From contig NC_135220.1 in the NCBI RefSeq assembly GCF_052324685.1, positions 813,828 to 877,827 of the forward strand: a DNA stretch of 64,000 nt, in the 5' to 3' direction. This stretch comes from Brachyhypopomus gauderio (lineage: Eukaryota; Chordata; Actinopteri; Gymnotiformes; Hypopomidae). Below, in pieces: positions 1,711-64,000 of this stretch (its first letter is position 1; each line of letters opens with the position of its first letter). The position numbers and the translations under genes are program-made. Under the pieces are notes generated by a model. That model ran no database searches. It was not told where the DNA came from and saw only the letters and a program-made list of their open reading frames with translations.

Positions 1711-4479
1711 CTATTAACTATTGTGTTCTCTTTGCCAAACTGCAGTCCGATGAACAGATATGTAAAGAACTCTGTAACTGTGACTATGGAGTTTCTGTGC
1801 TTTGAACCGAGTTTGAAAGGGACTGTAGCGTGGCGCTACCACGACCATTCCTTCGGTGAATCTGACGGTGTGTTCTGGTGTGTGGCCAGGTGTGAACACC
1901 ATGGCAAACTACGAGCAGGTGCTGCACCTGATCCGCTACAGGAACTGGCACACGGAGGCGCTGTTTGACAGGAAGTTCAAGCTGATCTGCTCTGAGCTCA
2001 ACGGCCGCTATATCAGCAATGACTTCAAGGTCGAGGTACGGCTGACAGTGCAGTCTATCACCGACTGCAGCGTTTGCATCCCATTGGGTTGTTTTACAAT
2101 TAATTTAATTGAGAATTGCTTTTTTTTGTAATCACATAAGCATAAATTCTCAAGCACTGAGCATATCTCAAGCATATTTATGCTTTTTTTTCCCTTATAT
2201 AACCGCATCAGCATCAGGAGGTTTAAAAATAGGTACCATCTTAATCTTAATCTGAGTGAAATGTGTGTTGCTGTGTGTGTGTGTCCTCTCGTAGGTCAAT
2301 GTGATCCACACAGCCAACCCAATGGAGCACGCTAACAATGCCATATGGCAGCCACAGTTCATCAACCAAGTCAAGCACGCATCGGTGGACCTGTCTGGAC
2401 ACAACCTGGCCAACACCCATCAAGCTTCAGGTGGTCCAGCAGCCGTCCAGGCTGTTCTCCTATCAGTCTCCATCTGTTCCAGCGGGTCACGGTTCCCGCA
2501 GGCATTCGGACTACCTAAGGCTTGCTCCATTTCTCAGTATCTCATAATCCAGCTAATCCAGGATTTGTAATGAAAGCAGTAATCTTAATTTCAAGTTCTA
2601 AAAAATCATGTTCTTTTAGTGTGAGAGAAAATCTGAGCCAAATCAGATAACCGCTAGATAAAGATGTTTTATTTTATTTAATTGTGCATATTTGGGATTA
2701 TGTGTGAACGCTGCCTGTGACATCTTGATGGCCAGTCTCTCAATGGCATTGTGTCCAACTGTTCACTGTGTCTGAGTGGTGATGAATAATGGTTTGACTA
2801 AATAATGACGTCTTGTGCTCTGTCCTCTCTCCCATCTTGACTCCTCTCTCTCCTGTCTCTGGTCTCCTCTCTCCTCTCTCCTGTCTCTGGTCTCCTCTCT
2901 GTTCTCTCCTCTCTCCCGTCTCTGTTCTCTGGTGTCCTCTGGTCTCTCCTGTCTCTGGTCTCCTCTCTGGTCTCTCCTGTCTCTGGTCTCCTCTCTGGTC
3001 TCTCCTGTCTCTGGTCTCCTCTCTGCTCTCTCCTCTCTCCCGTCTCTGGTCTCCTCTCTGCTCTCTCCTCTCTCCCGTCTCTGGTCTCCTCTCTCCTCTC
3101 TCCTGTCTCTGGTCTCCTCTGGTCTCTCCTGTCTCTGGTCTCCTCTGGTCTCTCCCGTCTCTGGTCTCCTCTCTCCTCTCTTCTGTCTCTGGTCTCCTCT
3201 GGTCTCTCCTGTCTCTGGTCTCCTCTCTGGTCTCTCCTGTCTCTGGTCTCCTCTCTGGTCTCTCCTCTCTCCTGTCTCTGGTCTCCTCTCTGCTCTCTCC
3301 TCTCTCCCGTCTCTGGTCTCCTCTCTCCTCTCTTCTGTCTCTGGTCTCCTCTGGTCTCTCCTGTCTCTGGTCTCCTCTGGTCTCTCCTGTCTTCGGTCTC
3401 CTCTCTCCTCTCTCCCGTCTCTGTTCTCTGCTCTCCTCCCTGCTCCGTTTCTCTAACGTTCACAGTTGTTCCCAGCGCTGCCACCATCGTCATTGTGGTG
3501 TGTGTGAGTTTCCTGGTGTTCATGATTATCCTGGGTGTGTTCCGGATCCGTGCCGCCCACCAGCGCACCATAAGAGACCAGGAGAACGGCAAAGAGAACG
3601 AGATGGACTGGGACGACTCAGCCCTCACCATCACGGTCAACCCGATGGAGGTAGCGCACAGAAGATCACGTTTACCTTCTGGCCAACCGTCACACAGTAC
3701 ACTCTCTCACAAAATAAACAAAATACATAAACGAAAAAAAAAGGACATGGCAAACAGATGAACACCAATCCAGAAAATTCTTGAAAAACATCAGTCTGAA
3801 GGAATTCAGCAAATGAATTCACGCATTCGACCTGTGAATACAAAACCACCAGCTTGTCGAAACTGATGGGACCCTTAACGGCGTTTTCTGCTTCAGGGAT
3901 CCAATCCGTCAGCCACCTCAGTCGCAGCTAATTAGCATTAGCAACACGAAGCCGAGATTGTGACGCCAGACTGCTGTGCAGGAAATGGGATTTTTTTTTT
4001 CCTTTCAGCAGTAACAATTTGTTACATCATCCCCAAGCAAAAATAAAATCTGAATGACGGGTTCGAGGAAGGCCATAGCTAATGTGGAGAAGCTTTGGAC
4101 TGGGAAGGCCTTCTGCAGACTGCAGAGGAATCTTTAAATGGGTTCACTAAAGTGAAAGTACTCCTGAATTATCTAATGAAAAAGAAAAACCTCACACTCC
4201 TTCTTCTCATTACTTCTCTCTCTCTCTCTCTCTCTCTCCCTTTTATCTTTTCTGTCTCTCTCTTTCTGGCTGCCCCCTTGACAGACTTATGAGGACCAGC
4301 ACAGCAGCGAGGAAGAGGAGGAGGAGGAAGAGGAGAGCGAGGACGGTGAGGAAGAAGACGACATCACCAGTGCCGAGTCGGAGAGCAGCGAGGATGAGGA
4401 GGGGGCGGAACAGGAGGACCAGCAGGGCACCAGCCGACAGCAACAGCTGGAGTGGGACGACTCCACCCTCACCTACTGA
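410..4479 (+). CDS. clstn1: Calsyntenin-1, 3' portion (last eight coding exons)
   Basis: Type I neuronal membrane protein of the cadherin superfamily that links vesicular cargo to kinesin-1 through its cytoplasmic tail. Coding exons: 410-567, 751-899, 1052-1284, 1479-1649, 1890-2035, 2295-2430, 3466-3650 and 4285-4479 (stop TGA 4477-4479). Phases join without a break to give 456 residues plus stop; the 5' part lies outside the window. Recognisable stretches include ISYLNSRQFPTPGIR, GYVMVLQPEEPKISLSG and KLICSELNGRYISN. The exon at 3466 encodes the transmembrane helix (TIVIVVCVSFLVFMIILGVF), followed by the short cytoplasmic tail. Two kinesin-light-chain-binding motifs, MDWDDSA and LEWDDST, flank a very acidic Glu/Asp run. 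CLSTN1 rather than CLSTN2 or CLSTN3 is inferred from the LZIC-NMNAT1-UBE4B-KIF1B neighbourhood. Every junction is GT-AG. Confidence 0.96.
1665..1709. repeat. (CA)n microsatellite in CLSTN1 intron
   Basis: Uninterrupted CA dinucleotide run beginning about 15 bases after the donor site of the exon ending at 1649. Confidence 0.95.
2815..3450. repeat. CT-rich minisatellite in CLSTN1 intron
   Basis: About 640 bp of imperfect tandem units built from the words ctctcctgtctctggtctc and ctctctcctctctcccgtct. One strand is nearly pure pyrimidine plus G. It ends about 15 bp before the acceptor of the transmembrane exon (3466). It creates long spurious open frames on both strands. Confidence 0.93.
4215..4238. 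repeat. (CT)n microsatellite before last CLSTN1 exon
   Basis: Short CT run that forms part of the pyrimidine-rich region upstream of the acceptor at 4283-4284. Confidence 0.9.
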
Positions 4480-9046: not shown

Positions 9047-10812
<1,766 letters not shown>

Positions 10813-12084: not shown

Positions 12085-14184
<2,100 letters not shown>

Positions 14185-14605: not shown

Positions 14606-15463
14606 AATCTTTGGATATTTAGTCTCTTTATCTTCAATATAATATGATAAACTTAATTTGCTCATTACTTTGTTTGCATGTACATAAATGTGCCTGAGGT
14701 TTGTGAAAGTCTTACAGAACTGTAAGAGACATTCATAGAACCACAGACTGTTTCTTCTAAATTGTGATACCTATTTGTTTATTTAGTGGTTTCTTGTGTT
14801 TATGTTAATGACGGTATTGTTCTAAGGTTCACACTTCGAGTTTAACATTTAATGCACCATCTCACTCTAGGCAAAGGCTGAAGAAGTATTTGCCTTGTGG
14901 GGAAATTTAACAGTGTAAACTACATGAAAGGGTGTGTGGGAGCAACCTAATAGAACCATGTGATTACCTCATGCATACAAAGGAAAGCCTGTAAACGTAT
15001 TGCTATTAATAACAGTGATTCATCTTACCTTGATTGATTACATGGGATGATAATGTAATATGAGGACAAATCCAATAATGCAGACCTGTTTACAACTTCA
15101 GAGTGAAATCTGATTTAACAATTAAACCATCCTAAGGGCTTCCCGAGAATGTTTTTTTCTTTCTATAATATCACTTATTTTAACTGCATATTCGAATATT
15201 TAAAATCCGAGTGACCATGCACTTATGTAAGTCAAGTAAAAGATGACTTGTTTTGTGTTAGGAAGTGTGTTCTGTCCTGTCTACTGTCTGCTCACAAAAG
15301 CTTGACACCTGGCTCTGCCCCCTTAGTGAGTCTCTTTTTAAAGCCTGTTAACTCACACTCACACTTCTTGTTAACTCACACTCATATTTCTTGTTAACTC
15401 ACACTCACACTTCTTGTTAACTTACACTCACAATTTTTTATCCTGCAGTTTCTTAGCAGTTAC
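14606..15463. other. Interval between NMNAT1 and the RBP7 relic
   Basis: AT-rich sequence without recognisable coding content. Its distal part holds the short tandem repeat described at 15346-15432. Confidence 0.6.
15346..15432. repeat. 23-bp tandem repeat upstream of the RBP7 relic
   Basis: About four copies of a unit beginning gttaactcacactcacactt, with the last copy diverging. It lies 30 bp before the relic start codon, in the place of its promoter or 5'UTR. Confidence 0.85.
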
Positions 15464-17018
15464 ATGGCGAAATGCCAGCCAGCCTGTGGTAAATGGGATC
15501 TGATTAGCAACACCCACTTTGAAGGATACATGATTGCTTTAGGTGAGGCTGTATTTACAACTAAATTAATTTGTTACCATTGTTATATTTTAATTACGAT
15601 TCTATGCTATGCAAAATATATTTTGACTTTTGACTTATTTTCTCAGATGCCTAATAACTGAAGCAAAAGGAAGGATTCACAGACTAGGATTAGAGTTAAA
15701 CATAGACTAGGATTAGTGTTAAACAGACTAGGATTAGTGTTACACATAGACTGAGAAGGACTTTAACAGTAAAACACCACATATATTTTACTGCTGTTCA
15801 AGAGCAGGCTAAGTCTATGTCCAGGAAACTGGGCTAAAATGTTGAACTATGTGATCAAAACTCTTAGCCCCTTTCGAAATAATGCTTCTTTCTTCAAAGT
15901 GGATAAGGAGTTTGATGAATTCACCAAAGGCTTGGATGAGAGATACTGAAGGTAAAATATTCATTTTGCTCTTAAAGATAAAATGACTCAATAATGTATT
16001 GGAATTGTGAAGGTTACAGTTTTCATTTGTAATGTCACAAAAGAGAATTTTAATTATTACCAGTGGTAGAAACTAGCAGAATGATTAGGGTGTCCTTGGA
16101 GATAATTCAGTGTTTGTTGTGACGGTTTTCTACCTTTAATTTAGATCACTGTACATATTTCAGAAAAACAATAACAAAAAGTGCAGATACATTATTTTAA
16201 CACACACACACAAATTTGATGTGAAACAAACTAGCAAAACAGTAAGCTTATGGACTGTTTGAAAACCTATCATTAATGATTTCCAAGTTTATTAACTGTA
16301 ACCAATCACATTCATTTGATTTCTTTACATATTTAGTAAAAGTCAATTTAATACATTTTTGTTTTTATAAAAATAATATCATAACTGACTCTTTATATCT
16401 GAAAATCAAACATTAGCTTGTGTGCTCCACCCTCCAAAAAAAAAAAAAAAGAAAAAGAAAATAAAAATAAATAAATAAAGGCAGTGCTTAAAATGGAGAA
16501 ATGATGCAATCTGGTTCCTTACAGTGTCTGGTGACCTGGAAAGACAAGAAACTGGTGTACACACAGAAGGGGGAGAAGAATAACAGAGGTTGGTGACACT
16601 GGACCAAGGATGACGAGCTATACTTGGTACAAATACAACCTAGTTAAAGTAACATGAACTGTTATGAATACAGTTACAGTTATACAATTACAGTTACACA
16701 GTTACATTTATACATTTACACAGTTATACAGTTACAGTTTAATATGGCATACAATTTAAAAAGCAAAGCAAATTCTAAAAGCACCACCACAACACAAATC
16801 TTGGTTATGTGCACTCTTAAAATCACATTTCCGTAGTAAAATAAATTACTTTGTTCGTTTGTTACTGGTCTATCTATTTATTGCCTGTATTCATTGTCTT
16901 ACAGGAGTTGTATTGTGAGGACCAAATCTGCAAACAGGTTTTCAAACAGATTCAGGAATCTCGAAGCAGAGCACTAAGCTCTAGTAATGTTTCGACCAGG
17001 AGGACAAAGACAGAGTGA
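15464..17018 (+). pseudogene. rbp7: Decayed retinoid-binding protein 7 gene
   Basis: Relic of a four-exon intracellular lipid-binding-protein gene, at the RBP7 position of the human order. Exon 1 (15464-15542) reads well (KWDLISNTHFEGYMIAL) and ends at a good donor. Exon 2 has lost its 5' half: homology resumes only near 15851 (KTLSPFRN, then FKVDKEFDEFTKGLDERY) and hits TGA at 15947, explained by one missing base before the exon end at 15951. Exon 3 (16525-16626, the normal 102 nt) reads LVTWKDKKLVYTQKGEKNNR but has an in-frame TGA where the family has Thr in GWTHW. Exon 4 (16905-17018) reads ELYCEDQICKQVFK with an unusually long tail to TGA. Splice sites of exons 1, 3 and 4 are intact, suggesting recent loss. 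A functional product looks impossible without readthrough. Confidence 0.85.
15681..15840. repeat. Repeat-derived sequence inside the RBP7 relic
   Basis: Contains three spaced copies (starting about 15681, 15704 and 15725) of the word agactaggattag followed by gttaaac, then a stretch around 15806-15835 (aagtctatgtccaggaaact) that resembles the ends of dispersed fish repeats. It occupies the place of the missing first half of exon 2. Exact ends and target duplication were not found. Confidence 0.5.

Positions 17019-18244: not shown

Positions 18245-33906
<15,662 letters not shown>

Positions 33907-37370: not shown

Positions 37371-64000
<26,630 letters not shown>

Follow-up and report, generated by a model that had tools for sequence, protein, structure and literature searches.

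The 64-kb window, i.e. the whole stretch of DNA that was analyzed, harbors a locus downstream of nmnat1 that is a well-supported pseudogene, because it carries two certain in-frame stop codons, lacks half of an exon and falls one base short at the end of exon 2; two probable lesions affecting the start codon and the final stop come on top. Very probably, the locus is a non-processed rbp7 copy that has decayed, corresponds by position to zebrafish rbp7a and no longer encodes a retinol-binding protein.

Four colinear remnants of a CRBP gene

The window was searched with a CRBP profile built from four sequences (human RBP7, zebrafish CRBP, RBP1 and one RBP2 chain). At a cut-off of E <=10, four of the 3334 six-frame fragments (at least 10 amino acids each) showed a match, all of them located at the rbp7 locus, in gene order and on the + strand. 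The exon 1 remnant (15472..15542, from the probable ancestral ATG to the GT donor) matched profile columns 6-33 with 16.4 bits and is followed by the 3' remnant of exon 2 (15845..15951, family columns 49-83), in which positions 15845-15943 matched columns 49-81 with 26.8 bits. Exon 3 (16525..16626), with AG and GT at its ends, reached 26.8 bits up to its internal stop codon (columns 82-107), and exon 4 (16905..17018) 14.2 bits (columns 118-133), with the match ending at 16949. For 20 windows shuffled in 2-nt units, the best domain score per window was 3.4-7.2 bits, a scale that is close, not identical, to the whole-fragment scores reported for the real window.

A tblastn search with the four CRBP proteins pointed to the same places, with an E of 7.9e-10 for exon 3 and of 0.58 for the best match elsewhere in the window, and neither the profile nor tblastn revealed further CRBP exons within the 64 kb beyond these four. 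When the fragments were joined and compared to the PDB, they matched RBP2, RBP7 and RBP1 chains with a best E of 1.6e-28. Homology to the CRBP family (intracellular lipid-binding protein family) was thus found over the coding exons. The joined fragments gave no match in Pfam, which we count against our best explanation, and phmmer with an 82-aa part returned no matches at E <=1e-25, an overly strict limit.

Genes of the CRBP family are split such that exon 1 ends one base into a codon and exon 3 comprises 102 nt. The same four-exon layout was recovered here, with an exon 3 of 102 nt and an exon 1 ending in phase 1. The introns are kept and the coding frame is disabled, as defines a non-processed pseudogene. 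The original prediction had placed four exons in the syntenic position and described most splice sites as kept: the four remnants are indeed colinear beside nmnat1 and six intron ends read GT/AG, but the candidate acceptor AG of exon 2 (15645..15646, + strand) precedes sequence that is unrecognisable as CRBP.

Lesions in the coding frame

The locus has no complete frame that could encode a ten-stranded barrel and its portal helices, with family columns 26-48 missing and two stops in frame. These columns represent the 5' part of exon 2 and have no counterpart; their place is taken by a stretch of ~198 nt (15647..15844, + strand) in which no CRBP sequence was found. Ungapped protein alignment of columns 26-48 was not significant over 15643-15842 (p = 0.17, 300 shuffles), and the same alignment over the first 48 nt gave p = 0.93 (500 shuffles). 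An apparent remnant after the AG, spotted by eye, was dropped because its ungapped alignment was not significant. The replacing stretch contains three copies of a 21-23-nt repeat as well as an imperfect inverted repeat and has no second copy within the window; it may resemble a common fish miniature transposon.

The remaining part of exon 2, with its GT donor directly after 15951, lacks one base relative to the frame required by exon 3 and runs into a TGA near its end (15947..15949, DERY-stop). Another in-frame TGA interrupts exon 3 (16594..16596, RGW-stop-HW). Both stop codons, the one-base loss at the end of exon 2 and the loss of the first half of this exon had been called in the original prediction and were all confirmed; together they bear out the pseudogene status proposed there. 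In exon 4, the frame beyond 16949 reads through to the TGA at 17016-17018, and the original stop has probably been lost.

The frame of exon 1 that fits the CRBP family is GKWDLISNTHFEGYMIALG. An upstream ATG (15464..15466, + strand, MAKCQPACGKW...), previously chosen as the start, is in frame with this remnant and makes exon 1 two codons longer than in the family, where six codons precede the G of GxW. The ATG at 15472, in turn, opens MPAS, as compared to MPVS in zebrafish rbp7a. The edit distance to the 25-nt zebrafish rbp7a start, which was read from a morpholino printed in Chen et al. 2015 (PMC4664474), amounted to 7 for ATG 15472 and to 13 for ATG 15464. A distance of 7 was the minimum among the 1038 + strand ATGs, with ATG 15472 tying with ATG 28049. 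For such a short query, only this comparison among ATGs is informative; when the 25 nt were searched against the entire window, the result was not significant on its own (distance 7 recurs elsewhere, and the minima in 30 shuffles were 5-7). The frame from ATG 15472 reads MPASLW-stop and hence terminates within exon 1. Judged from these sequence comparisons, ATG 15472 rather than ATG 15464 was probably the ancestral start, and exon 1 is probably broken as well, through a 2-nt loss that put this ATG off the GKWDLISNTHFEGYMIALG frame, so that the exon would appear open solely via the upstream ATG 15464. The previously assigned span of 15464..17018 is accordingly qualified at both ends: the start probably lies at 15472, and the profile match ends at 16949, with exon 4 running on. 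Directly 5' of the broken exon 1, where a promoter or 5' leader would be expected, we observed a tandem repeat (15346-15432) with a 23-nt unit, 3.8 copies and 92% matches.

None of the splice forms tested by translation yields an RBP. Behind the candidate acceptor of exon 2, the codons following either exon 1 or nmnat1 lead to stops, with exon 1 spliced to 15647 giving ALDA-stop. If exon 1 is spliced to exon 3, the frame changes and a stop is reached within exon 3.

Gene identity and the nmnat1-rbp7 fusion

Sequence comparison is not decisive for the assignment to RBP7, and we count this against our best explanation. Identity over 101 comparable residues was 59/101 for RBP2, 54/101 for both human RBP7 and zebrafish CRBP, and 50/101 for RBP1. 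The window shares 4/28 of the residues private to human RBP7 and 4/19 of those private to RBP2. The H of RGWxHW is common to the window and human RBP7 and is not found in RBP1, RBP2 or zebrafish CRBP. Human RBP7/CRBP IV (PDB 1lpj, 6at8) thus agrees in 54/101 comparable residues, including this H, whereas the window lacks columns 26-48 and shows two in-frame stops.

The position beside nmnat1 is the main support for RBP7 rather than another CRBP. The coding exons of nmnat1 (12208-12322, 12623-12806, 12931-13058 and 13787-14184, + strand) encode 274 aa with no internal stop, and the gene is open, full-length and similar to solved NMNAT1 (E 2.3e-109); it ends at 14184, 1.3 kb upstream of the remnant. 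According to Chen et al. (PMC4664474), rbp7a adjoins nmnat1 in zebrafish, and the same nmnat1/rbp7 order is stated there, as data not shown, for human, mouse, chicken, fugu and medaka. The RBP7 identity claimed earlier is therefore supported by position, whereas the sequence, with RBP2 ahead of RBP7, is not decisive.

Further genes were recognized in the neighborhood. A gene on the - strand encodes an ICAT-domain protein, which we take to be lzic, and a Ufd2P_core match downstream of the rbp7 remnant (30268-30609) presumably belongs to ube4b, a gene that flanks rbp7 in other genomes. A neighboring kinesin gene is closest to KIF1A chains and is assumed to be kif1b. The region 304-609 had no matches in Pfam; we take it to be a calsyntenin exon. 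No tRNA genes were found in the window.

In zebrafish, mouse and chicken, an nmnat1-rbp7 fusion transcript has been reported (PMC4664474), and the fusion is described as the sole enzyme known to make NAD+ in the cytoplasm, where it is presumably directed to the ER. In nmnat1, the donor at 13058 lies in phase 1 and fits rbp7 exon 2; the exon ending there presumably corresponds to exon 4 of Chen et al. Joining nmnat1 (to 13058) to 15647 gives SRTDA-stop, two codons past the junction. Comparing the locus to zebrafish rbp7a and its fusion, the likenesses comprise the site beside nmnat1, the MPxSxCG-like start and the phase 1 junction with exon 2. Zebrafish, however, express rbp7a and produce the fusion (PMC4664474), whereas here the frame is broken and a fusion would stop at once. 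We infer that neither free Rbp7 nor an Nmnat1-Rbp7 fusion protein is produced from this locus and that Nmnat1 is kept.

Most specific in this finding, and not raised in the original prediction, is the loss of the fusion partner; the finding would otherwise be routine gene decay. If relatives share the lesions, the locus would provide a natural experiment on Nmnat1-Rbp7, a fusion described as conserved: a lineage without the fusion and with nmnat1 intact would show that the fusion can be dispensed with or that rbp7b or another CRBP stands in for it. As an observation in its own right, the phase-1 donor used by the fusion in fish and mouse is kept in nmnat1 though its partner exon has been destroyed.

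Probable route of the loss and nearby repeats

Among the residues covered by the remnants, 44 are invariant across the four CRBPs; 36 of these are kept and 8 are changed. Of 56 columns without variation in zebrafish CRBP, RBP1 and RBP2, 44 are retained by human RBP7 and 40 by the window. A recent loss had been suggested earlier, and a fairly recent one is plausible from the sequence, because the relic is still close to a working sequence; the retained GT/AG ends point the same way and add little, being few bases, and the loss is undated. The retention of 36/44 invariant residues and of the GT/AG ends would be unexpected in a long-dead gene, and is counted against our best explanation.

In PMC11612004, zebrafish rbp7a and rbp7b are given as a pair of duplicates that arose in the teleost genome duplication, and they differ in embryonic expression according to PMC4664474. 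Loss of one of two teleost duplicates is the likeliest reading, and a simpler one than unitary loss. Two rbp7 genes would have been left after the duplication, and the copy at this locus would have come free of constraint; it would then have been broken by small indels, by one or more substitutions and, in exon 2, by an insertion/deletion that is perhaps due to a mobile element. The likeness to the rbp7a/rbp7b pair as listed in PMC11612004 is that one possible copy decays and the neighbors stay. If the host, called a fish in the original prediction, is a teleost, a second rbp7 copy may survive elsewhere, since zebrafish keep both genes. Taken as a bare pseudogene, the locus would show nothing out of the ordinary for a gene that has been duplicated. 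No rbp7 pseudogene of fish was found in the literature searched by title and abstract opening, a scope that excludes most subscription papers.

A narrower form of this explanation, put forward in the original prediction, is a unitary pseudogene, with no intact rbp7 anywhere in the genome and a species devoid of RBP7. A dead copy at the ancestral position and a window that holds no other CRBP exons would fit this reading, but zebrafish have two rbp7 genes and the window covers only 64 kb, and we consider it doubtful. It is equally improbable that the lineage has lost Rbp7 entirely along with the Nmnat1-Rbp7 fusion. If true, it would represent a natural knockout of Rbp7 retinol buffering and of the NAD+ provided locally to oxidize retinol, with Nmnat1 intact; the bearing on retinoid handling proposed in the original prediction is speculative.

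The retained GT/AG ends, together with the nmnat1 donor at 13058 still being in the phase ancestrally required by rbp7 exon 2, would also be compatible with the transcript of the broken gene, or its exons within nmnat1 transcripts, still acting as a non-coding or regulatory RNA; an nmnat1-rbp7 splice form could, for example, lower Nmnat1 output via early stops. With no Rfam matches in the window at gathering scores, and a joined form that ends after SRTDA without the part from the last nmnat1 exon, we regard this as unlikely. Least probable of all is an intact gene that looks broken through assembly or sequencing error: the lesions are several and of differing kinds, a missing half-exon among them, and the exons of nmnat1 (274 aa) and of the lzic-type gene alongside read open. 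In particular, an upstream nmnat1 that is open and full-length argues against a poor assembly stretch. Decay of a non-processed rbp7 copy is our preferred reading.

Several repeats were noted elsewhere in the window. The region 2743-3459 is rich in RRPETGERR-like repeats and has several open frames on both strands, and is probably a minisatellite rather than coding. One intron of the lzic-type gene contains an inverted repeat (10324-10498) with 50-nt arms that are 92% complementary and 75 nt apart; this repeat looks like a miniature inverted-repeat transposon. Finally, nested inverted repeats at 42066-42698, with arms of 63, 47 and 47 nt that are 86-96% complementary, perhaps represent a palindromic mobile element.
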